A stretch of DNA of 45,902 nt from a virus. Below the pieces are notes generated by a model, which saw only the letters and a program-made list of their open reading frames with translations, was not told where the DNA came from and searched no databases. Made by a program: the position numbers and the translations under genes. The stretch lies in the IMG/VR virus record IMGVR_UViG_3300036846_000539, positions 1-45,902 of that record; one strand, given 5' to 3'. Positions within the stretch are counted from its first letter, which is position 1, and each line of letters begins with the position of its first letter. Shown here piece after piece: positions 170 to 39,332 of this stretch.

Positions 170-182
170 GTTTGACTCACAC
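170..182. repeat. Palindrome copy GTTTGACTCACAC
   Basis: Contains the TGA stop of the giant virion gene and lies three bases before the ATG of the winged-helix gene (minus strand). Confidence 0.9.
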
Positions 183-3100
183 AGGTGGCGCTCCCCACGG
201 TAGCGTTCTCCTTGCTCCTGGTACAAACTCTTCGGTCTTCGGCGTGTTGGCTTTGGGTGTTGTGCCTTGTTGGAACGCGCCGCTGGGCAGACCGTATGGG
301 TCAAGGTCATCTATTCTTAATCTTCTGCCGTATGTGTTAAAGAAGTCTTGGCCCATGGGCGATGAGTTGAATTTGTCTTCGATTTCGCTGATTGCATTAT
401 TGATCCCTATTGCTACACGCTGACGCTGGTGCTCCCAGTAGTTGCGCACTTGTCGTGGGTCTTTGTGATTAATTCCAGCTTCTTTCATTCTGTCCACGAC
501 GTCTGGCTTGTTTGCCACTAGATTGTTATGCCACGGTCCCATGTTACCATAGTCAATCTTTTGCATAGACTGGATACCCTCAGTTGCTTCACGGTAGCGG
601 TCCCAAAGCGAACGGTAGCCGTGGCCACCAGTCCTTGGTGAGTCATGTTTGGTCAAGTTATAAAGTTCCTTCGCAAACTCTATATAGAGAGGATTGGTCG
701 GCTCGGGTTGATCTAGTCCAGGTGTATGGTGAGGCAAGTGCGGTCCTACTGCTTGAGTGGCTATCGCCTCACCGCCTTTGCTAAGCGGCTTCTTTCGCAC
801 AACGTCTCTCACGCCAGTCAGTTCATACTTGCGGTAGAACTCGTCGAGTTGTTCAATAGCCTGCTGTCGATTGTACATTTCCTGCGTGTATCGCGTCATG
901 CCAGAAAGCGGTGGTAGCACACCTGCTATGTTGCGAATGACAGGCAGGCCTTGTATATACGGCTTGCCTGCTTGTTTGACTGCGTTCTTTAATGCTTCTC
1001 CGTATCCTCCTGGCGTGTGTACGAATGCCGCTCCGGCGCCTAGTAGCATATCGGCAATGGTAGGAGCGAGTGTCCTTAAGTAGCTTTCTCCACTCTGTCC
1101 CACAACTCTATTCTGGTCGAATGGAGAGTTCTTCTTCTTGTACACGTCGCCGCCTATATCAGCGTTTTGACTGTTCTGCCCCAGTCCTGAGAACAGCGAA
1201 CTCGGCAGAAATCCTCCTATGTTCTGCGGTGCTTGGACGCCTGCTGCTGCGAACGCGTCACTGATGAAGGCTGGCGTGGGAGGGAACGCGGCAATGTCGG
1301 CCCAGTTTGCCGCTGCTGCCTTCATGTCCTGCGTCCAATTCCATGCGTTGTTGCCGTACAGATGGTCCATAGCTGCTTCTGTCATCATCTTCGGGCCTAC
1401 GTCCTCCTGGAACGCAAGCGGGAGTTCAACGCCATCTGCGACACGTTCTCCCGGCAGTCCCAAGTATTGACTCATAGCTTTTGAGTATTCGCTACGTCCG
1501 TACATCATATGCCAGACGTAGGGTATGCCGTCTGGGTCTTTGCCTAAGGCTGCGTTCCACAGGTATGCCAGTCCTGACGTTCCGGTACCGTACAATGCCC
1601 ATCTGAGAGCAGTTTCAGTCGGGTTTGTAGCAACCGATCTGTATAAGGCCTTTCCTCCTTGCAATATCATATTGTGCCATGGCGACCATTCGCGTCCCAA
1701 CTGATTGCTACCAATCCACCCGTACTGTATCCCTCTTGCTGCTATTCCTTTTAGCGTCCTTGCTATTGCACTCTTGGGAATACTCAGTTCGTCCTCCATG
1801 TCGTATCTGACAGGCCCGCTGTGCCTCTTGTAATATATTCCAGCGGTCTTTGGGTTACCGGCCAGGTCGTTGCCCATTGAGAACAGAGGTGCAAGTATCT
1901 TTTCTTGCTCTTGTGGCGTCATTGCATCAAATATCTTACGGCTTGGTAGATTACGTTCCAGAAATGCATAGTTTGCTGCGCCGTGTACCGACGTGATTGC
2001 GTTCTTGTATGCTTGAAGGTACATAGACAAGTGCCGGTACTTTGGATTGTTCATAAACTGTTTGGCCTTCCTGCCTAGAGCATCAACGCCACGTGCCCAG
2101 GTTTCGTGCTGTGGAGACATCATTCCGGAAGCATGTGCACCCATGGCTTCCACCATGTGTGCTGCGCCTTTGTGCTGCGCATGGGCTAGAACGGTTGATA
2201 TGTGGTTTGTAGCTGTAGGCCCAAGCTTTTGCTGCAGCCACTTGCCAGTAGGTGTGTTCTTAAACGAGAAGCGTGCATATTCGGCCATCTTTTGTATGTT
2301 TGGCCGTGCTATAGCATGCGGCAACGAGCCTGGGCCAAACGGTATGTAATTGCGCCCGAAGATGTAACCTGGAGCGCTAATGTGCTGTGGGTGCCATGGA
2401 AGCGCTGAGGCTGGTGGAATCAGTCGTCCTGGACCCCAGCCTTTCCTTGTGCCCGCAATAGTTCTCTTCATAATCCAAGCATTGCGCATCACATCGGTTA
2501 AAGCGAAGTGTGAAAGCAGTCCTGTTGTGGTGCTAGTGAACAATCGATTTGTTGCTCCGGTAATTGCGGCTACAGCGTTTGACGTGAACATTCTTGGGTC
2601 AAGGTCTAGTGCCTGCGCCATAGTACTGTTTCTTACTAGCCAGTTCTCGGTTACGCCGCGGCGCTCACCAGTTACTAGATTCATCCTTTTGCGCGGTGGT
2701 AATGCATTGGCTTCCGCTTGTGTTAAGTATCTGAACATTGTCTGACCGTGTGGGGAACTGCGGATAACGTCAATAGCAGACATTTTAGCTGCATTGCTCA
2801 TTTTCTCACGGGCCCCTAACTGCTGACGGCCTTCGATAGCTCTGTATGGATCACCACGTTCGATAGGCTTGCCGTACTTGTCAAGTGCAGTTCCGTTTTC
2901 GCCGTACTCGCGACCATGCCACGGGATTTCATTTGCGTTGTGGGCATTCATGTCTGCTAGTTCTTGTTTCGTGTGTAGTCCGTATTCGCCCTCGGCCTCA
3001 GCGCGGCGTATTTCCGCCATATATTTGCGCACATTGGCCTGCTGAGCAGCGAAGTCTGGATGTGCTTGATCCAGCAATCCGACTTTACGTGTTGCGCTTT

Positions 3101-6100
3101 GTCTTGTCTCGCCGCGCACACTGATTGGTCCATATTGTGGGTGCGCTAGCGGCAGGTTCTGCTGATTGGGGCCACCGCGTTGCGCCTGCTCCTTCATGTG
3201 AATGTCGTCGAGTGTATCTTTTAAGTGTATATAGTTGCGAAACTCTGGGTTCTTGTGCATGTAGTATCCCAAGTCGTATAGAGGTACGTCTGCTTTGAAG
3301 TTGTACTCCGGCGATATGGCATGGCCATGGTTTGTAGCTGCTTCCGCAATTGCCGCCGCTTGCGATCCCGTGGTGTGCTTGAACACTTCTCTCATTCTTT
3401 TCAGTGTAGTTTCGTCTACTCCAGCTTTTTCCATGAAACTCTTAACCGGACCCATCAAGTCATCGCCGAAACGCGTAAAGGCTCCCAGCCCGAATCCGGC
3501 TTCTTTTCCGATTGGGCCACGTGGCGCTTGTGTCAGGCCGGGAGGAAGCGGCGGTGGCGGTGGCGGCACAGGCGATTGTACTGTCGGTGTTTGAGTCAAA
3601 CGCGGTGCAGGCGGTGTAGCAGGCGGTAGTGATGGTGTGGATGGTGGTGTAGCGGCTGGTGGCGTGGCTTGTGGTATGGGTGGCGCGGGTGGAGCAGCAA
3701 CTGACGGTGCGGCGGGTGGCAAAAGCTCAGCCGGAATAGCCGATGCCATCTGTGCTTGAGTTAATGGCGGAAAGGCGGGCGGGGCTGGTGTGGTCGGTGT
3801 AACTGGCGTAGCTGGCACGGCGACTCGAGGCGGCACACCTGGAATACGTGCTCTTGTCCTACGCACTGGTAGTGTTGGTACTGGCTGAGCCTGTGGAATG
3901 CGCATTTCGGCCGGTGGTGCACCTAGCTTCATGCGCTCTGCATATTGCGCTGCTGCTTCTTCTGCGGCTGACCTGTAAACCGGCTTGGCAGGTGGGACGG
4001 CTGGCGTCACAGTTTTGCCGGAGCGCTTTTGTACAAGTGGCTCTTTGAGAGATTCCAGTTCAGCAATTGGGCTTGCGACCGGCCGCTCTGCAGAAGGTAT
4101 CGTTGTGATAGGTTCTTCCGTAGCTAAACGCTCAGCCTCTGCTGTACGCTCAGGCTTCGTAAGCGTTTCCAGCCAACTGCCGGGGACGATTGCACTGGAA
4201 GAGCCTGCCTTCGGGCCTGGACCCGGAGGTTCAGCTACAAATTGCCCCGTTGGAGGATCACGCAGACGGCCTGTCGCTGCATCGCGGATAGGGCCTGGCT
4301 CTGTAGAAGCGGGTGCCTCACCGCTTTGAAACTCTGACAGCTTGTTGTGCCGTGAAAGTATTCTACTCAGTGCTGCATTTTTTGATGTGCTTGGTGCCAC
4401 AGGACCATTAAACTTGTTGGCTATGTCAACAACGGTTTCCCGTGGAAGCTCCTTCAGGCTTTGGTATACCGGCTGGAAAGCAGCATTGTTGCCCAGAGCG
4501 GTTGTTAACTCAGCGGCTTTTGTATCGCTTAGGCCTGTAGTAGCACGCGCAAGGCCTGTCTTTGGCAACTTCGGTAATTCGCCCACACCGCCTATAAGAC
4601 CTTCAGCGGTCTGGACACCTTCCTTCTGCTCGAACTTGCCAATTGCTTTCATCCAGTCTGGATAATATTCTCCTATAATGTCGGAGAGAGCATGACCCGG
4701 CTCTACTACCCCAGGTATGCCAATGGGGTTGAAAGCGTGCAGTATGTCTTTGGTAGCTTGCGCATACTGTGGAGTGACTGTTGGTAACTGTGATGCCACC
4801 TTCGCTCCGTGCGTCATCGAATCTATTTGTTCTTTTGTAAGCGTAGAAGGCTCTGGCTCTATCTGGTCCAGCCGTGGCACAACACCAGCAAGTTCTTCAG
4901 CTTTCACTTGTGGCGAGTTTGCGATGCCTTTTGTCATGCCGATGGTTGGGTCAACTGCTGCAAGTCCAGCATCGATGGTATGCAACTGTCCGTCGGCACC
5001 GGTCACAGTGATCTGCTGTGGTGTTTGATTCAAACTGTTAGCGTAAGCTAGTGCAGCAGCAGTGTCCTGATCGGGCGTGGTAGTACCTGGAAAACCAGGG
5101 GTTACGGCAGGCTGGAGGTTTACCGGAGGTAGGTCTGGTGTGGGAGTTGCAACTGCGGGTTGTAGTGTTGGAGGTGGTGTTGGAGTCGGAGTAGGCGTTT
5201 TTAGCGCTTCTAGCTGAGGTTTCAGAGCGGCTAGTTCTTGGTCGGGCTCGGACTGTTCCTCTGTGGGTACATCTTCTGGCGTGAGCACTGGTATAAGAGC
5301 ACCACCGCCAGCGCGACGAGCCACACCACCGCCCGCAGTCGGTATACTGTACGTGCCACCAGCACCACCCATTACCATTTTGATCCAGTCGGCGTCGGCA
5401 TTCTCGTGAACGAAGCGCTCTCCTGTGCCAGGGTCAAATGCAACAGGAGCGCCTCCTGAATGCACATTGCCACTCTCGTTTCCTGTAGTAAAATTGCCTA
5501 CGTTCGAGCCTTGCATAGCATAACCGATCATATTGTTGATACGGTTCTGCTCGCCAGGGTCGAAGCTCTGGCCTAGCTTGGACGTAGTTGTGCTAGGATA
5601 GTAATGTGCATCCTGTATGGCTTGCTGTAGAGTCATGCCCCGCGATAACGAGCGATTCATAACGGATTCGATATAAGCCTGCTCGGCTCGTGGCCCCTGG
5701 CCTCCGACTTCGGCCGCTACTGAGGCTGCGAACAAACGGCGTGTGTTCGGATCGTTAAGTTCAGTGGCGAATTTTGCCTGCCGCATCTGTGCAAGGCTAC
5801 TGATGCCAGGCATGCTCCCGCCACCACCAGTGATATTGTACTGCTGATTGCCGGCAGGGACGCTGAGGGTCTGGCCGCTGGAAAGCTGTATGTGCCCAGG
5901 ATCAGCCTGGAAGGCATTATTCTTGAGAAACTCTAGTCCGAAGCGTCCAGCGTTTTGGTGCAAGTAGTCAAGCACAGGACCGCTGTTTACGTCAGCAGCT
6001 TGGCCAAGAGCGTGCCGACTGCGACCAGGTGGTGCCGCTAAACCCCCCTGATTGTTAGGATTAGGCTGATACGTAACACCATTAAAAGTGACTGGCTGCC

Positions 6101-6590
6101 GTGTATAGTCTGCGTAATACTGTGCTTGCTGTTCTGGTGGTCGATACAGATCGCGGAGCACCGCTTGGTGTCCCGTAGCTGACTCAGCCGCTTGTATAGC
6201 TTGTGTTAGTCTGCTGGCAAACTCAGGGTTGAGGCCGTGAGCGTTAAGGTTTTGCCCTTTGTTAAGCAAATATTGGTACGGATTGATGTTGCTTGTGGGC
6301 GATGGTGGCTGCGGCGGCATGGGCTGTGGAGTCATGCCAACCGTAGCCACAGGTGGGCCGCCAGGAGGCGACGCCAGCGTTGTTGCATGGTCGAGTGGTA
6401 TATGTGCGTCTCGTGTTGGTGCGTAGTCTGGCGGCAGTTGATCTACCACCAGACTGGCATATTGACCTGGAAGTTGAAAGTCTGGTGCTGCCATCGCCAG
6501 ATCGTACGAGGTCGGAGGTGGCGGCAGCTGCTTGTTTTGGTCGTCGTCGGGTGGAGGCAGCGCGAGGTCTTCCAGGTTTTGAAGTGACAT
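177..6590 (-). CDS. Giant virion protein with two peptidoglycan-hydrolase domains (probable ejected internal protein)
   Basis: A 2,137-residue protein, the largest in the genome. Residues about 120-240 look like an M15/VanY-type peptidase: SRHALGQAAD at 191-200 gives the zinc-site H193 and D200, and DPGH supplies H233. Residues about 280-410 resemble a SleB/lytic-transglycosylase-type wall hydrolase, with a likely catalytic glutamate at E294. A long Pro/Ala/Thr-rich linker (about 800-1040) follows, then a roughly 1,000-residue C-terminal region with hydrophobic stretches. In T7-like phages, very large internal proteins are ejected into the cell envelope and open peptidoglycan; this is the inferred role. 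The ATG is two bases after a palindrome copy and has no Shine-Dalgarno. The TGA stop lies inside another copy (170-182), and two more copies are in frame in linkers (LTQTP, LNQTP). A diverged C-terminal copy is at 44741-45902. Confidence 0.8.
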   Translation of the reverse strand: MSLQNLEDLALPPPDDDQNKQLPPPPTSYDLAMAAPDFQLPGQYASLVVDQLPPDYAPTRDAHIPLDHATTLASPPGGPPVATVGMTPQPMPPQPPSPTSNINPYQYLLNKGQNLNAHGLNPEFASRLTQAIQAAESATGHQAVLRDLYRPPEQQAQYYADYTRQPVTFNGVTYQPNPNNQGGLAAPPGRSRHALGQAADVNSGPVLDYLHQNAGRFGLEFLKNNAFQADPGHIQLSSGQTLSVPAGNQQYNITGGGGSMPGISSLAQMRQAKFATELNDPNTRRLFAASVAAEVGGQGPRAEQAYIESVMNRSLSRGMTLQQAIQDAHYYPSTTTSKLGQSFDPGEQNRINNMIGYAMQGSNVGNFTTGNESGNVHSGGAPVAFDPGTGERFVHENADADWIKMVMGGAGGTYSIPTAGGGVARRAGGGALIPVLTPEDVPTEEQSEPDQELAALKPQLEALKTPTPTPTPPPTLQPAVATPTPDLPPVNLQPAVTPGFPGTTTPDQDTAAALAYANSLNQTPQQITVTGADGQLHTIDAGLAAVDPTIGMTKGIANSPQVKAEELAGVVPRLDQIEPEPSTLTKEQIDSMTHGAKVASQLPTVTPQYAQATKDILHAFNPIGIPGVVEPGHALSDIIGEYYPDWMKAIGKFEQKEGVQTAEGLIGGVGELPKLPKTGLARATTGLSDTKAAELTTALGNNAAFQPVYQSLKELPRETVVDIANKFNGPVAPSTSKNAALSRILSRHNKLSEFQSGEAPASTEPGPIRDAATGRLRDPPTGQFVAEPPGPGPKAGSSSAIVPGSWLETLTKPERTAEAERLATEEPITTIPSAERPVASPIAELESLKEPLVQKRSGKTVTPAVPPAKPVYRSAAEEAAAQYAERMKLGAPPAEMRIPQAQPVPTLPVRRTRARIPGVPPRVAVPATPVTPTTPAPPAFPPLTQAQMASAIPAELLPPAAPSVAAPPAPPIPQATPPAATPPSTPSLPPATPPAPRLTQTPTVQSPVPPPPPPLPPGLTQAPRGPIGKEAGFGLGAFTRFGDDLMGPVKSFMEKAGVDETTLKRMREVFKHTTGSQAAAIAEAATNHGHAISPEYNFKADVPLYDLGYYMHKNPEFRNYIHLKDTLDDIHMKEQAQRGGPNQQNLPLAHPQYGPISVRGETRQSATRKVGLLDQAHPDFAAQQANVRKYMAEIRRAEAEGEYGLHTKQELADMNAHNANEIPWHGREYGENGTALDKYGKPIERGDPYRAIEGRQQLGAREKMSNAAKMSAIDVIRSSPHGQTMFRYLTQAEANALPPRKRMNLVTGERRGVTENWLVRNSTMAQALDLDPRMFTSNAVAAITGATNRLFTSTTTGLLSHFALTDVMRNAWIMKRTIAGTRKGWGPGRLIPPASALPWHPQHISAPGYIFGRNYIPFGPGSLPHAIARPNIQKMAEYARFSFKNTPTGKWLQQKLGPTATNHISTVLAHAQHKGAAHMVEAMGAHASGMMSPQHETWARGVDALGRKAKQFMNNPKYRHLSMYLQAYKNAITSVHGAANYAFLERNLPSRKIFDAMTPQEQEKILAPLFSMGNDLAGNPKTAGIYYKRHSGPVRYDMEDELSIPKSAIARTLKGIAARGIQYGWIGSNQLGREWSPWHNMILQGGKALYRSVATNPTETALRWALYGTGTSGLAYLWNAALGKDPDGIPYVWHMMYGRSEYSKAMSQYLGLPGERVADGVELPLAFQEDVGPKMMTEAAMDHLYGNNAWNWTQDMKAAAANWADIAAFPPTPAFISDAFAAAGVQAPQNIGGFLPSSLFSGLGQNSQNADIGGDVYKKKNSPFDQNRVVGQSGESYLRTLAPTIADMLLGAGAAFVHTPGGYGEALKNAVKQAGKPYIQGLPVIRNIAGVLPPLSGMTRYTQEMYNRQQAIEQLDEFYRKYELTGVRDVVRKKPLSKGGEAIATQAVGPHLPHHTPGLDQPEPTNPLYIEFAKELYNLTKHDSPRTGGHGYRSLWDRYREATEGIQSMQKIDYGNMGPWHNNLVANKPDVVDRMKEAGINHKDPRQVRNYWEHQRQRVAIGINNAISEIEDKFNSSPMGQDFFNTYGRRLRIDDLDPYGLPSGAFQQGTTPKANTPKTEEFVPGARRTLPWGAPPV
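3589..3601. repeat. Palindrome copy GTTTGAGTCAAAC (coding)
   Basis: In frame in the Pro-rich linker of the giant virion protein (LTQT). Confidence 0.9.
4203..4230 (+). repeat. Hairpin repeat a (coding, antisense to gene)
   Basis: CTTCGGGCCTGGACCCGGAG core inside the giant virion gene. Confidence 0.75.
5023..5035. repeat. Palindrome copy GTTTGATTCAAAC (coding)
   Basis: In frame in another linker of the giant protein (LNQT); central base T. Confidence 0.9.
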
Positions 6591-10053: not shown

Positions 10054-10066
10054 GTTTGAGTCAAAC
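10054..10066. repeat. Palindrome copy GTTTGAGTCAAAC
   Basis: Upstream of AGGAGG of the 504-residue gene; a hairpin repeat begins four bases away. Confidence 0.9.
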
Positions 10067-10069
10067 AGA

Positions 10070-10096
10070 CCTCCGGGTCTCAGCCCGAAGGCAGGC
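10070..10096 (-). repeat. Hairpin repeat b
   Basis: Minus-strand core CTTCGGGCTGAGACCCGGAG, next to the palindrome at 10054-10066. Confidence 0.8.
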
Positions 10097-11522: not shown

Positions 11523-11545
11523 GCTTGTCCTCGCGGAGGCGGGGA
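11523..11545 (+). repeat. Hairpin repeat c (degenerate)
   Basis: GCTTGTCCTCGCGGAGGCGG form with a CCTCG/CGGGG stem, one base before the palindrome at 11547. Confidence 0.55.
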
Positions 11546-11546
11546 T

Positions 11547-11559
11547 GTTTGACTCAAAC
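11547..11559. repeat. Palindrome copy GTTTGACTCAAAC
   Basis: Upstream of the GNAT gene, directly beside a degenerate hairpin repeat. Confidence 0.9.
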
Positions 11560-26283: not shown

Positions 26284-26311
26284 TTCCCCGGGTCTTCGCC
26301 CGAGGAGTTCC
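26284..26311 (-). repeat. Hairpin repeat d
   Basis: Minus-strand core CCTCGGGCGAAGACCCGGGG in a gene leader; its flanks GGAACT and GAACA match the 39-bp element. Confidence 0.8.
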
Positions 26312-27356: not shown

Positions 27357-27533
27357 GCACTATTTTCACCATCCACCTGCGGCATATTGTCGCACCCTGA
27401 CCACCTCACATCCCCGCGAGGGGATCCTTTCCCACACGCATAGAGTGTTACAACCTGCGAATACAACCTGCCGAGCGCGTCCGCTGACGCACCCAGTACG
27501 CATTTGTTCTCCTTCTGTTCCACCGGGATAGGA

Positions 27534-27576: not shown

Positions 27577-27617
27577 CCAATTCCACCCCTCACGTACCCC
27601 TCGCACATAGGATTATT

Positions 27618-27716
27618 CCTATACAACTCCTATACAACTCCTACACAACTCCTACACAACTCCTACACAACTCCTACACAACTCCTACACAATTCCTATA
27701 CAATTCCTATACAATC
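27618..27716. repeat. Nine tandem 11-bp repeats (iteron-like array)
   Basis: Units follow CCTAYACAAYT and are exactly 11 bp: CCTATACAACT twice, CCTACACAACT four times, then CCTACACAATT, CCTATACAATT and CCTATACAATC. The outer units are more AT rich. The array ends five bases before a GTTTGAGTCAAAC palindrome. One repeat per helical turn is typical of iterons or a cooperative binding array. Confidence 0.85.
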
Positions 27717-27721
27717 CATGT

Positions 27722-27734
27722 GTTTGAGTCAAAC
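27722..27734. repeat. Palindrome copy GTTTGAGTCAAAC
   Basis: Five bases after the 11-bp repeat array. Confidence 0.9.
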
Positions 27735-31225: not shown

Positions 31226-31255
31226 GCTTGTCCTCGAGCGAAGATCCGGGAAGTG
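31226..31255 (+). repeat. Hairpin repeat e
   Basis: CCTCGAGCGAAGATCCGGG, with an A-T pair replacing G-C; four bases after the 383-residue gene stop. Confidence 0.75.
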
Positions 31256-31298: not shown

Positions 31299-31311
31299 GT
31301 TTGAGTCAAAC
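31299..31311. repeat. Palindrome copy GTTTGAGTCAAAC
   Basis: Follows the terminator T run, upstream of the single-TM gene. Confidence 0.9.
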
Positions 31312-31590: not shown

Positions 31591-31632
31591 ATGGATGCGA
31601 CAATATGCCGCATATAGTTGTGTCGATTTTGC

Positions 31633-32205: not shown

Positions 32206-32244
32206 GTTTGAGTGGAACTCCTCCGGCTTGACCGGGGGACAAAC
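32206..32244 (+). repeat. 39-bp element, copy 1
   Basis: Begins GTTTGAGTGGAACTCC and ends CCGGGGGACAAAC. It is the exact reverse complement of 34571-34609. The outer parts resemble the two halves of the 13-bp palindrome; the inner part matches the hairpin repeat family (GGAACTCCTC...GGGGA). It lies in the leader of the zinc-finger-like protein gene. Confidence 0.85.
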
Positions 32245-32266
32245 AGCAAGTAAAGGAGTGCAGAAT

Positions 32267-32491
32267 ATGGGTTATGCATTAGCAATGGGCGCTTGTGTTA
32301 GGTGCAAGCGTATCTTCTCATTCAATCCGGTACGTGTTCCGAGCCTTAAGGTCAATGGCGTCAAGGAGCCTATATGCGCGGATTGCATTAAATGGGCTAA
32401 CCCAAGAAGGGTTGCGGCGGGACTAGAACCGTTTATACCTGCACCAGATGCATACGAGGCGTGTAACGAGTTAGAGCTGGGGGGCGATTGA
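32267..32491 (+). CDS. Small Cys4 zinc-binding-like protein
   Basis: A 74-residue protein with two CxxC pairs (CVRCKR at residues 9-14 and CADC about 30 residues later), the pattern of a zinc ribbon or knuckle. AAAGGAGTGCA is seven bases before the ATG. The upstream extension of this frame passes through the 39-bp element and is not used. Role unknown; zinc ribbons often bind nucleic acids. Confidence 0.6.
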   Translation: MGYALAMGACVRCKRIFSFNPVRVPSLKVNGVKEPICADCIKWANPRRVAAGLEPFIPAPDAYEACNELELGGD

Positions 32492-32492
32492 C

Positions 32493-32729
32493 ATGAGCAG
32501 GCGTTGGTGGATTGTGGAACACTCAACACGTGGTGTGCTTGTGGATATCGATTATGACGGCAAGCCGAGTTTCAATTGGGTGGATCCACGTGGGTCGGAG
32601 AAGCACTGGTTATTTGAGACGGAGGGAAAAGCGCGGAATATGTTGGACCGAATACCTGAGCCTACACGTGCTCGTTGCAAGGTATTTGGTCCGATTGCTC
32701 AATATGTGAAAAGGAGTACGCCGACATGA
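32493..32729 (+). CDS. Hypothetical 78-residue protein
   Basis: Beta-rich and Trp-rich (MSRRWWIVEHSTRGVLVDID, then KPSFNWVDPRG). A G-rich ribosome site precedes the ATG one base after the upstream stop. The end overlaps the regulator gene by ATGA. No family is recognised. Confidence 0.55.
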   Translation: MSRRWWIVEHSTRGVLVDIDYDGKPSFNWVDPRGSEKHWLFETEGKARNMLDRIPEPTRARCKVFGPIAQYVKRSTPT

Positions 32730-33034
32730 GTAAGCTGCAATCTTCTGGCTTGACCAGGCCCTATCAGCATGAGATTGACCCTATCATCTACAGATTGGCT
32801 GCGGTGATCCGCGGTATGCGTTTGACTCAAACAGAGGTGGCATTGCGGACTGGCGTGAGTGTATCAACGGTGCACCGCATTATGCATGGTAAGCGTGGGA
32901 CGCTTCTGTTCAGAACTGTGGCGAGGGTTGTGATAGGGCTTGGTGCGATGCATGTGCCGCTGCTTAGCAAGCCAAAGGTTAGAGGACACATAGCAAGCGG
33001 ACGTAAATCTGTGGAACAGGAGATCAAGCAATGA
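32726..33034 (+). CDS. XRE/Cro-CI-type HTH regulator
   Basis: A 102-residue protein. MRLTQTEVALRTGVSVSTVH followed by RIMHGKRG is a clear Cro/CI helix-turn-helix with LTQ opening helix 2 and the recognition helix at SVSTVHRIM. AAGGAG precedes the ATG by nine bases. A perfect GTTTGACTCAAAC palindrome (32820-32832) lies inside its own HTH coding sequence, encoding LTQT. It is a candidate regulator of the early promoter or of the dispersed palindromes. Confidence 0.8.
   Translation: MSKLQSSGLTRPYQHEIDPIIYRLAAVIRGMRLTQTEVALRTGVSVSTVHRIMHGKRGTLLFRTVARVVIGLGAMHVPLLSKPKVRGHIASGRKSVEQEIKQ
32820..32832. repeat. Palindrome copy GTTTGACTCAAAC (coding)
   Basis: Inside the HTH coding region of the XRE regulator. 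Confidence 0.9.
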
Positions 33035-33216
33035 TAAAGTTCGAAGCTGGAATGAAGGTTCGGGCACTTGTTGACTTTTCATGCATGACTGACGGTCAGG
33101 TATTGGAGGTCAAAGTGGAAAAAGTGGATGATGATTTGTTGTTGTATGTGGATTGTGCGCGTGGAAAGCATTATGTGCATAATCTTTGTGAGCCAGATTT
33201 CGAAGAGGTGAAGTGA
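33031..33216 (+). CDS. Small beta-rich protein
   Basis: A 61-residue protein MIKFEAGMKVRALVDFSCMT, then VLEVKVEKVDDDLLLYVDCARG, an SH3-like strand pattern. The ATG overlaps the upstream stop, with AGGAG upstream. Function unknown. Confidence 0.55.
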   Translation: MIKFEAGMKVRALVDFSCMTDGQVLEVKVEKVDDDLLLYVDCARGKHYVHNLCEPDFEEVK

Positions 33217-33734
33217 TGGCAACGAGAGCGAAGATGCGAGATGTAACGGCGATTGTGCCGCAGGGACGCACGCCATCAACTGAGTCAAAGATTACGGGAG
33301 CGAACCCGAGTAGCTTCCTGGGCATGATTATCAAGGATATAGGTAGTGTAACGAGCGGCTTGCTGGACAAGATCAAGCAGGACACGGGCAAAGGCGCGAA
33401 CACAAGCAGAATTTTGGCCGAGCTATTCATGTGGAGTTGGATTGGCAAGTACGCGGACAGCAAGTACGATAAGTTGCTCACGCAAGCTAAGGAGGATGGC
33501 GTATTGGGCAATCTGGAGGGCCTCGAAGTTGGCAATCATGGCCTTGCAGAGAGTAGGCATTTCTTTGTCACGGTAACTGTAACAGAGCCAGTTCGTAGGT
33601 TCAGTCCTGAAATGCTGTGTGATTGGGCGCTCAAGGAGTACAAGATACCGATTATTGTGATGAAGGAACAGATTGATAAGGCAAAGGTAGCCACGAAATC
33701 TCAGATGCGCATCACGATAGCGGAGCGTGCGTAG
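33216..33734 (+). CDS. Hypothetical 172-residue protein
   Basis: MATRAKMRDVTAIVPQGRTP, then a helical middle (LAELFMWSWIGKYADSKYDK) and a beta segment (RHFFVTVTVTEPVRRFSPEM). Coupled to the upstream gene by TGATG. It ends at a hairpin repeat and a strong terminator, closing the unit that starts near 31670. No family is recognised. Confidence 0.6.
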   Translation: MATRAKMRDVTAIVPQGRTPSTESKITGANPSSFLGMIIKDIGSVTSGLLDKIKQDTGKGANTSRILAELFMWSWIGKYADSKYDKLLTQAKEDGVLGNLEGLEVGNHGLAESRHFFVTVTVTEPVRRFSPEMLCDWALKEYKIPIIVMKEQIDKAKVATKSQMRITIAERA

Positions 33735-33764
33735 GCTTGTCTTCGGGCGAAGACCCGGAGATGG
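33734..33764 (+). repeat. Hairpin repeat f
   Basis: CTTCGGGCGAAGACCCGGAG directly at the stop of the 172-residue gene. Confidence 0.85.
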
Positions 33765-33778
33765 CACGCGCTTCCGCG

Positions 33779-33821
33779 GGGGCTGAACGTAAGATTTGCA
33801 CTCCGGCGTTCAGCCCCTTTT
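33779..33821 (+). terminator. Rho-independent terminator
   Basis: GGGGCTGAACG (33779-33789) / CGTTCAGCCCC (33807-33817), 11 bp perfect, followed by TTTT. Confidence 0.85.
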
Positions 33822-33850
33822 AACCTAGGAGTGCGGCAGGAGAGAACTAA

Positions 33851-34528
33851 ATGAGAAGTGTAGCAATAGCGGCAGTGTTGGTGCTAGGCGTAGGGCTTGC
33901 CTTCGGGCCGGGACCCGGAGGGAGCGCCGAAGCATCAACAGTCTGTTTCAGCCCGGCGGCTGGGTGCTCGCTCGGGACGGAACAGAAGATATTTGTGGAC
34001 CACACACAAACCGGAGTAACAGCAGGCTTTGCCGATGTTGGCTCGCAGTCAGGGCCAGCAGCGGATTTTACGTCTACGACAGCGGACAACTTTAGTGAGG
34101 CCAACGGCTTCGCTAATGTAAAGCCCGCGAAGACCACTAATGGCGGCAAGTTCTTTACCGACTTGACGTTTTTCATTCCCGGCCACACGTTCACTGACTT
34201 CGAGTACGACGTGCAGATGGCTGGCAAGCAGAAGAGCACCAGCTTCACCGTGGAGGCGTTTGGAGGCAAGACCGGGACAACCCTGGAAGGGAGCCAGACC
34301 TACACCGGCAACAATCACGATGCCGATCTGAGTTTCTTTCTGGCCTCTACCACACCGCTGACCAGGCTGGTGTGGCAAGCAGCGACTGGCGCTGGCTTCA
34401 AGGAGATGAAGCACTTTGAGGTAAGCGGAGTTACTGCGCTAGCGGCAACACCACTGCCTGCGGCTTTGCCAATGTTTGCAGCAGGTCTGGGTTTGCTTGG
34501 GTGGCTTGGCTTGCGTAAGAGGGTGTAG
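33851..34528 (+). CDS. Secreted protein with PEP-CTERM/VPxPAALP-type sorting tail
   Basis: A 225-residue protein. It has an N-terminal signal peptide (MRSVAIAAVLVLGVGLAFGP) and ends with TPLPAALPMFAAGLG, a hydrophobic helix and a basic terminus LRKRV, the three-part tail recognised by exosortases in many Gram-negative bacteria. The middle is beta-rich (FTDLTFFIPGHTFTDFEYDV). Exosortase substrates are anchored, cut and exported with exopolysaccharide. Such a protein on a phage is unusual and may alter the host surface. A hairpin repeat (33893-33925) is embedded in the coding region just after the signal peptide. AGGAG is nine bases before the ATG. Confidence 0.75.
   Translation: MRSVAIAAVLVLGVGLAFGPGPGGSAEASTVCFSPAAGCSLGTEQKIFVDHTQTGVTAGFADVGSQSGPAADFTSTTADNFSEANGFANVKPAKTTNGGKFFTDLTFFIPGHTFTDFEYDVQMAGKQKSTSFTVEAFGGKTGTTLEGSQTYTGNNHDADLSFFLASTTPLTRLVWQAATGAGFKEMKHFEVSGVTALAATPLPAALPMFAAGLGLLGWLGLRKRV
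33893..33925 (+). repeat. Hairpin repeat g (coding)
   Basis: CTTCGGGCCGGGACCCGGAG inside the PEP-CTERM-like gene, encoding FGPGPGG. Confidence 0.85.
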
Positions 34529-34531
34529 CGA

Positions 34532-34569
34532 GAGCATAAGGGGGGGGGCCAGCCGGTCCCCCTTTGCTC
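34532..34569 (+). terminator. Terminator-like hairpin
   Basis: GAGCA/TGCTC and AAGGGGG/CCCCCTT form a 12-bp stem with one bulge; no long T run follows. It directly precedes the second 39-bp element. Confidence 0.55.
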
Positions 34570-34570
34570 T

Positions 34571-34609
34571 GTTTGTCCCCCGGTCAAGCCGGAGGAGTTC
34601 CACTCAAAC
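34571..34609 (-). repeat. 39-bp element, copy 2 (inverted)
   Basis: Begins GTTTGTCCCCCGG and ends GGAGTTCCACTCAAAC; exact reverse complement of 32206-32244. The two copies bracket 2.3 kb containing the zinc-like protein, XRE regulator and PEP-CTERM genes. Confidence 0.85.
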
Positions 34610-34631
34610 GCTGAAGAAGAGAGGAATGAAG

Positions 34632-34802
34632 ATGAAGAAGGCACTTCAGAAGCTGCGAAATGAGGTAGAGGAACAAACAAGAATATTGCGTGGCCTTGAC
34701 ATGAGATTAACCGTGGTCCTGGAAACTGTGCGGAATATTGAGGACGAGTTGGAGAGGCGTGATGCCACTGATTCTGCAGCCAATGTTCAGCCAGAAGAGT
34801 AG
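34632..34802 (+). CDS. Short coiled-coil protein
   Basis: A 56-residue protein MKKALQKLRNEVEEQTRILR continuing LDMRLTVVLETVRNIEDELER, a clear heptad pattern. The ATG at 34632 has AGG seven bases upstream; an ATG at 34626 is possible. Overlaps the next gene by 41 bases. Function unknown. Confidence 0.5.
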   Translation: MKKALQKLRNEVEEQTRILRGLDMRLTVVLETVRNIEDELERRDATDSAANVQPEE

Positions 34803-37427: not shown

Positions 37428-38351
37428 ATGCCTATTAAGCCTTTCAAAGTTGGTCCAGTCACAACAACGAGTGGACGGGAAACGCCGCGTAGGATGGCTG
37501 TGCTCTTGTGGGGAGCGTCATCGTGCGGCAAAACTACGTTCGCGGCTACCGCTCCTGGACATAAGCTATGGTTGTCATTGGGAGATCAGGAGCACACAGC
37601 AGTGCAGGATCGTACCGATATTACTGTTGCTAATCTGTCAAGCCTCACACCGGAAGAGTTGTTCAAGCATGCGAAAAGCGATAATCCATTTGGGTTGGAC
37701 CAGATACTAGCTGATAACGAAGAAATAGAGACTGTGGTTCTTGACTCAGCGACAGCACTTGTGGGTTTAGCACTGAACCGTGCTGTAGACACAGGTATAG
37801 GGACAAGTAGACGGGGTTTTTCTCCTACGATAGAGGAACCAGGACAAGCTGCATACGGCGCTCGCAATGCTTTAACGCTTAAAGTGATAACTGGCTTATT
37901 GCGAGTAACGGCAAAGCATAACGTGCATTTGATTATCACTGCCCATGAAAGCGATCCTGTTTATGTAACAGAAGACGGCAAAGAGGTAGTGAGTCACTAT
38001 AGTGTCATGCTAGGCGGACAGCTTGTAAATCACACAACGTTCCGGCTATCAGAGATATGGTACATGTCGTTGATGCAGAACGTGCGCAAATTGGCTGTGC
38101 GGTCAAATGTTCGTAAGCGCAGACCTATGAAGACGCGTATGTTCTCAGGTAAGGGAGATGCAGAGTTCATATTGGAATATGATGCCGACCTACCAGATAC
38201 TGGCCAGATGACTATAGCAAAATGGTATCACGAATGGCTCGATAATGGTGGAAAGGTCATGCCACCTAGCATGAGAGAGCAGGTTGCAAGGTCTGAAGGT
38301 CAGAAGGTCAGCGAGGTTTTAGTCCGGCCTAAGGCGCACCGAAGGTCGTAG
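37428..38351 (+). CDS. Sak4-like RecA-fold ATPase
   Basis: A 307-residue protein with Walker A GASSCGKTT (residues 29-37), Walker B ETVVLDSATAL (D106) and LIITAHES as the sensor strand. Phage AAA/RecA-core ATPases of this size next to SSB-like genes (Sak4 type) act in annealing or recombination. AGGAG precedes the ATG; a palindrome copy abuts that site. A hairpin repeat follows the stop directly. Confidence 0.75.
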   Translation: MPIKPFKVGPVTTTSGRETPRRMAVLLWGASSCGKTTFAATAPGHKLWLSLGDQEHTAVQDRTDITVANLSSLTPEELFKHAKSDNPFGLDQILADNEEIETVVLDSATALVGLALNRAVDTGIGTSRRGFSPTIEEPGQAAYGARNALTLKVITGLLRVTAKHNVHLIITAHESDPVYVTEDGKEVVSHYSVMLGGQLVNHTTFRLSEIWYMSLMQNVRKLAVRSNVRKRRPMKTRMFSGKGDAEFILEYDADLPDTGQMTIAKWYHEWLDNGGKVMPPSMREQVARSEGQKVSEVLVRPKAHRRS

Positions 38352-38380
38352 CTTGTCCTCGGACAGTGATCCGGGGAACC
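38351..38380 (+). repeat. Hairpin repeat h
   Basis: CCTCGGACAGTGATCCGGGG, with an A-T pair at the loop-closing position; overlaps the Sak4-like stop. Confidence 0.75.
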
Positions 38381-39017: not shown

Positions 39018-39021
39018 TATC

Positions 39022-39052
39022 GAAGTCCTCGGGCGGAACGACCCGGGGAGTG
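39022..39052 (+). repeat. Hairpin repeat i
   Basis: CCTCGGGCGGAACGACCCGGGG after a terminator is 22 bases; key parts are CCTCGGG and CCCGGGG. A half palindrome (ATCAAACAG) follows at 39056. Confidence 0.75.
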
Positions 39053-39083: not shown

Positions 39084-39332
39084 ATGACTCAGAATGGATG
39101 GGTAAGAGCGGAGGTTATCCAAGCGCTGCGACAAGGCTACAGTGAGGGCAGCGAGCAGAGATGTATAGAGAGTCAAGCAGATGCAGTGATGGCGCTTATC
39201 GAACAGATCGCGAGTGATACTGACAGGTTCTACCTGCTTATCGGGTGGCTGAACAATCTGCGGTTGCGCGTGCGTGATATCGAAGAGAGCCTGCCTTCGG
39301 GCAGAGACCCGGAGGATAAAAAAGATGACTGA
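39084..39332 (+). CDS. Hypothetical helical protein, 82 residues
   Basis: Helical (VRAEVIQALRQGYSEGSEQR, then FYLLIGWLNNLRLRVRDIEE). AAGGAG lies eight bases before the ATG. A hairpin repeat (39291-39316) is in frame at its C-terminus (PSGRDPED) and supplies the GGAGG of the next gene, which it overlaps by eight bases. No family is recognised. Confidence 0.55.
   Translation: MTQNGWVRAEVIQALRQGYSEGSEQRCIESQADAVMALIEQIASDTDRFYLLIGWLNNLRLRVRDIEESLPSGRDPEDKKDD
39291..39316 (+). repeat. Hairpin repeat j (coding)
   Basis: CTTCGGGCAGAGACCCGGAG; its GGAGG serves the ribbon-helix-helix gene. Confidence 0.8.

Follow-up and report, generated by a model that had tools for sequence, protein, structure and literature searches.

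In the tailed-phage DNA analysed here, a REP-like miniature hairpin is probably a mobile element that is moved in trans and inserts singly near or in ancestral operator-like palindromes. A more pointed version, which we advance tentatively and with somewhat less than even confidence, is that a gene-less hairpin of 22–26 nt is actively moving in this phage group, is recognised by its single-strand shape (covarying stem, obligatory T.G), and is aimed at palindromes, thereby repeatedly landing on and splitting the phage's own operators. The window, meaning the whole 45.9-kb stretch under analysis, is an IMG/VR record in which the late genes (tape measure, tail fibre, portal, and terminase) run leftward and the early genes (Sak4-like annealing protein, Dda-like helicase, and DNA polymerase) rightward. 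The GenBank phage set held no close relative of this phage, the best proteins being below 60% identity. Related contigs were retrieved with the terminase and polymerase as queries, and the comparison set comprised 13 records (genomes or fragments), the window included. Relative G001 shares about 70–80% DNA identity with the window and has a terminase that is 95% identical as protein. Here, we noticed that the contig ends (1–1718 and 44486–45902) are diverged copies of one region (98% over 183 nt, then 77–86%), both aligning to a single G001 region; the record resembles a genome, circular or permuted, that was closed with the allele of a different strain.

The first-pass annotation had drawn attention to an exact inverted pair of 39-nt sequences, 32206–32244 being the reverse complement of 34571–34609, and had likened its ends to split halves of a 13-bp palindrome and its interior to hairpin copy d (26285, GGAACTCCTCGGGCGAAGACCCGGGGA); on each of these points we agree. 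The exact identity extends to 41 nt (GTTTGAGT...CAAACAG; 32206–32246 and 34569–34609) between unrelated flanks, the match stopping where the palindrome stops but for an additional AG on one side. The anatomy is that of GTTTGAGT, a 26-nt hairpin, and CAAAC, and both 39-mers occupy the usual palindrome position, upstream of small genes. At the place equivalent to the first copy, G001 carries an intact GTTTGAGGCAAAC 5' of AGAGGAGTGCAGAAAATG. Relative to copy d, the stem carries a compensated change of G-C to C-G, and this, together with the GGAAC tail common to both, suggests a common source for the 39-mer hairpin and copy d. The pair is best explained as two putative operators, each split at GTTTGAGT^CAAAC by one recent hairpin. 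For both operators to be split identically at one bond, either the site must be strongly preferred or the 39-mer must have been copied in full; two separate insertions, and a split operator duplicated at another place, suit the data alike. We consider it unlikely that one 39-mer arose as a complete copy of the other, by mobility of the whole unit or by gene conversion: the abrupt end of identity at the palindrome edge (plus AG) between unrelated flanks would suit such copying, but there are two copies only, the exact 39-mer has no match elsewhere in IMG/VR, and other hairpins move without palindrome halves. In the window, there is no third copy at up to three mismatches, and no such pair arose in any of 100 dinucleotide shuffles.

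The palindrome itself (TGTTTGAGTCAAACA / GTTTGASTCAAAC) was found in all 17 related contigs, with a reversed-pattern control giving none. Full-length relatives have 17–40 copies each (at most one mismatch), while 17 exact and 14 one-mismatch copies are found in the window. Those outside coding sequence cluster 11–15 nt before start codons, and 135 sites combine into a logo with 15-bp dyad symmetry, TGTTTGA[GC]TCAAACA, around which no promoter-like hexamers (-10/-35) appear. The group-wide spread marks the palindrome as an old, ancestral site, and with its many copies and start-codon spacing we call it operator-like, a putative operator. An HTH protein encoded within the 2.3 kb between the 39-mers (32726–33034) is unlikely to be the group-wide binder, since its homologue is found only in G001. 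Among known phage sites, Cluster O mycobacteriophages have a 17-bp dyad repeat in more than 30 copies across the genome that is not tied to start codons (PMC4351075); both dyads have many genome-wide copies, but the sequences differ and only the present one is start-codon-linked. Cluster K start-associated sequences lie near start codons (PMC3203893) and Cluster A stoperators are asymmetric (PMC9283540). The present palindrome is likewise a short repeated phage site, though a dyad, unlike the asymmetric stoperators. A tandem 11-nt repeat, TCCTAYACAAC, occupies 27606–27726 at the divergent early/late junction, with a palindrome alongside.

The hairpin of the window measures 26 nt and is present in about 12 copies; a tail of 4 nt, for which CTTG or CCTG is usual, precedes an 8-bp stem that carries a loop of 5–8 nt. 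A structure-based search together with repeat counting recovered the copies in relatives, which mostly have a 22-nt form with a CWTG tail, 7-bp stem, and GAAR loop (e.g., CATG-TCCTCGC-GAAG-GCGGGGA), and most share the consensus CWTG-NNCTCNN-GAAR-N'N'GGGN'N'; the tails are CATG, CTTG, CCTG, CAAG, and a few others. By the model search, at least a dozen hairpins are present in G009 and in G012, two in G005, and one each in G001 and G007, the scores of several copies being circular, as the model was built on them. No hairpin passed the model at a low E-value in G002, G006, G003, and G008. Among 20 distinct 22-nt forms, 99.3% of stem cells are paired, changes on both sides of the stem number 21 (4.7 when shuffled), and one-sided changes number zero. 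Such a covarying stem with no one-sided change indicates that the hairpin structure is under constraint. Moreover, the fourth stem pair is T.G in all 20 forms, and such an invariant wobble suggests that the hairpin is recognised in single-stranded form. Sequence variants are lineage-specific. An Rfam search returned no family and a tRNA search no tRNA.

The hairpin copies that the first-pass annotation had placed at 10070, 11523, 26284, 31226, 38351, and 39022 are real, as are the palindromes paired with them as neighbours, but two of these pairs (31226/31299 and 38351/38403) are each at least 26 nt apart, and the palindrome beside hairpin 39022 is decayed (GTGTAAATCAAAC). Further copies are found at 4203, 33735, 33895, and 39289 (Table 1). 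Since several hairpins lie close behind a stop codon (31226, 33735, and 38351), intrinsic terminators were considered, a reading that we dropped as very improbable: the hairpins have no following T-run, and true long-stem terminators adjoin them.

Table 1. Palindromes, hairpins, and the inverted 39-mer pair in the window.
Feature	Position	Strand	Remarks
Hairpin inside tape-measure gene 177–6590	4203–4230	+	Antisense; region too variable to prove insertion
Hairpin CCTGCCTTCGGGCTGAGACCCGGAGG	10069–10095	-	3 nt from palindrome 10054–10066; 26-nt insertion, empty in G001, G002, and G006
22-nt form CTTGTCCTCGCGGAGGCGGGGA	11524–11545	+	1 nt from palindrome 11547–11559
Hairpin copy d GAACTCCTCGGGCGAAGACCCGGGGA	26285–26310	-	Absent at aligned G001 place
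Decayed hairpin	31226–31252	+	Just 3' of stop codon; gap in G001 alignment
Intact palindrome GTTTGAGTCAAAC	31299–31311	.	After terminator hairpin, 28 nt before start codon
39-mer copy 1	32206–32244	+	Palindrome GTTTGAGT/CAAAC split by 26-nt hairpin; 22 nt upstream of ATG 32267
26-nt hairpin insert GGAACTCCTCCGGCTTGACCGGGGGA	32214–32239	+	8-bp stem TCCTCCGG/CCGGGGGA, one T.G, loop CTTGA
Palindrome inside HTH gene 32726–33034	32820–32832	.	
Hairpin CTTGTCTTCGGGCGAAGACCCGGAGA	33735–33761	+	At stop codon
Hairpin in PEP-CTERM gene 33851–34528	33895–33921	+	27 nt, in frame
39-mer copy 2 (inverted)	34571–34609	-	16 nt upstream of small gene starting 34626
26-nt hairpin insert of 39-mer copy 2	34576–34601	-	Identical to insert of copy 1
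Hairpin CTTGTCCTCGGACAGTGATCCGGGGA	38351–38377	+	Within 36-nt insertion vs G001
31-nt insertion with hairpin	39019–39049	+	Directly abuts palindrome: intact in G001 (GTTTGAGTCAAAC), decayed in window
Hairpin inside gene 39084–39332	39289–39315	+	18–24-nt gap in G001

Empty sites with an intact palindrome, which the first-pass annotation had proposed to look for, were found in relatives. Gaps between the window and G001 match hairpins at 10069 (26 nt), 31222, 33740, 38354 (36 nt), 39019 (31 nt), and 39288, and hairpin 26285 is additionally absent in relatives, the boundaries at 26285, 31222, 33740, and 39288 resting on alignments of 70–75% identity. At 10069 and 39019, the empty relative keeps the adjacent palindrome. 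Between phages that are 93–99% identical, hairpins are likewise precisely present or absent: CATGTCCTCGCGAAGGCGGAGA is present in L084 and absent in G009 (98.6% identity), CATGTACTCGCGAAAGCGGGTA is present in G012 and absent in G009 (93% identity), and a 25-nt form adjoining a palindrome is present in G009 and absent in G010 (98% identity). In two further cases, a 22-nt hairpin occupies the GAAR loop of a second hairpin in one phage, and the phage compared with it lacks the nested copy. By hand count, hairpins make up about nine of the 14 distinct indels of 20–80 nt between close relatives; each such indel holds one hairpin, with no clear target-site duplication at the indels. Alternatively, the hairpins might be ancestral and precisely lost in separate lineages. 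A comparison of two phages does not tell gain from loss, individual events between close phages could have gone either way, inter-phage recombination can move alleles, and an 18-nt stretch with the whole palindrome, present in G010, G012, and others, is precisely missing only in G009 (at about 19232), most simply by loss. However, at the window sites that can be compared, no alignable relative holds the hairpin, the sequence variants are confined to lineages, and nested copies need an insertion step, and we accordingly hold ancestral hairpins to be improbable and infer insertion rather than loss.

Of 45 hairpins, 23 overlap a palindrome or lie no more than 3 nt from one, as compared with a mean of 7.7 and a maximum of 18 for random intergenic placement (2000 trials); since the 45 copies include sites common to related phages, this fraction overstates their independence. 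The first-pass annotation had suggested that both repeat families may be parts of one element. Here, the physical link and the mobility stand, but a single element does not, in that the hairpin moves independently and the palindrome is ancestral. A related view is that palindrome and hairpin form a composite regulatory element (operator plus leader RNA hairpin) under selection, its insertion history being incidental. Ahead of start codons, many hairpins do separate the palindrome from the ribosome-binding site, and the stem structure is conserved. Nonetheless, most palindromes have no hairpin, the palindrome-rich G002, G006, G003, and G008 have none that the model scores at a low E-value, the gain or loss of a hairpin leaves the palindrome as it was, some hairpins lie within coding sequence, and nine of the 15 in the leftward late genes are antisense, all of which makes such a composite rather improbable. 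In terms of orientation, 27 of 34 distinct hairpin copies are on one genome strand (two-sided p of about 0.001, with at least one locus counted twice). Given this strand bias and the antisense copies, transcription does not fix hairpin orientation; replication may do so. In three unrelated viral and bacterial contigs (L112, L114, and L115), a single 22-nt hairpin sits inside palindromic arms that, on our reading of the flanks, look like CGTC-type REPs.

As for how a singly inserting hairpin would come about, we envisage an ancestral palindrome of 13–15 bp (TGTTTGASTCAAACA), just upstream of start codons and probably bound by a dimeric protein, into which the hairpin would insert as a single unit with a preference for palindromes, whether at their edges, in their interiors, or in the loops of other hairpins. 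A host HUH/Y1-type enzyme, our guess at the leading candidate, would probably recognise the hairpin in single-stranded form and move it in trans; copying of a replication-borne hairpin by template switching is a possible alternative. A Y1 transposase (Y1_Tnp, PF01797) is absent from all six frames of the 13 phage genomes or fragments, the same search being positive in 10 of 14 control genomes. Among 84,980 bacterial and archaeal genomes, the window-type hairpin gave 12 single matches and no rich genome, while the 22-nt form, sought in three groups of 369, 289, and 247 genomes, was found in 1, 2, and 0 genomes, respectively, with 1–2 copies each. A search of three of these genomes with the general hairpin form added nothing, and BLAST of the hairpin against phages and plasmids returned chance matches.

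REP elements of the GTAG and CGTC super-families are imperfect hairpins of 20–40 nt with a 5' tetranucleotide and a stem irregularity (PMC3733652; for TnpA-REP/RAYT, PMC8266576), are mostly intergenic and sometimes in frame in genes, and in some families lie inside target palindromes (PMC3733652, PMC8266576). The phage hairpin is likewise an imperfect hairpin of this size range whose structure, with its covarying stem and fixed T.G, is conserved across copies, and it works like REP elements, but without the GTAG/CGTC tag (having CWTG or CCTG instead), without a RAYT, and moving as a singlet. Unlike REPs, it is phage-borne, at about 10–15 copies per genome, with no high-copy bacterial genome (bacteria with the exact form have 1–2), and unlike the REPtron/RAYT arrangement, no Y1 HUH transposase gene accompanies it in the 13 phage records. 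REPINs are also short hairpins, which move as inverted doublets, singlets being held dead (PMC3116915); the phage hairpins share the precise presence and absence, but it is single 22-nt units that come and go. MITEs (70–300 nt, with terminal inverted repeats and target duplication) differ from a 22–26-nt hairpin with no clear target duplication. Elhai and colleagues reportedly described small dispersed repeats of cyanobacteria as mobile hairpins of about 21–27 nt without a coded transposase in bacterial chromosomes. These are similar in size and in having no coded transposase, but their sequences and carrier differ. T4-type PeT cassettes, which lie between phage genes, are mobile, regulatory, and equipped with a stem-loop; promoter and terminator are paired in them, a pairing not seen in the present elements. 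Among the papers searched, there was no earlier report of such hairpin elements in phages, and the word phage is absent from one of the REP papers (PMC3733652). If REP-like movement is right, few mobile DNA elements are as small as this hairpin, which is unusual in being carried by a virus, and its precise presence or absence between phages up to 98–99% identical makes the spread of REP-like hairpins testable in small genomes. Moreover, phages could then switch off single operators with the genes untouched, and a putative group-wide operator-like site would be named.

The suggestion in the first-pass annotation that the exact pair could invert the DNA between its copies (32245–34570) found no support. 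Exact inverted repeats 2.3 kb apart are what an invertible switch would have, but the G001 orthologues keep the same order and orientation with respect to the flanking DNA, no alternative orientation was seen, no recombinase was listed when the proteins called in the window were scanned against Pfam, and the sequence identity is wholly accounted for by palindrome plus hairpin. Neither of the features of an invertible DNA switch, both orientations and a recombinase, was thus found, and such a switch is extremely improbable. The PEP-CTERM gene and the small genes 32267–32491, 32514–32729, and 34626–34802 have no homologue in relatives save for a C-terminal match in G002 and G006, and with homologues mostly missing, the 2.3-kb neighbourhood is a variable region with gained genes. 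Its protein 33851–34528 has a signal peptide and a PEP-CTERM motif (Pfam E of 0.0018, below cut-off); G002 and G006 encode unrelated PEP-CTERM proteins, and the motif also has a match in one protein of G009. In the early region, one window protein matches the Acb2/Tad1 hairpin domain of the anti-CBASS/anti-Thoeris sponge family (E of 2e-13), as does one G009 protein (E of 9e-12). Lastly, an inverted 20-nt repeat (TGCGGCATATTGTCGCACCC) at 27378–27397 and 31593–31612, with similar CTGCGACATATTGTCGCACCC copies in G007, is possibly an origin or regulator site.
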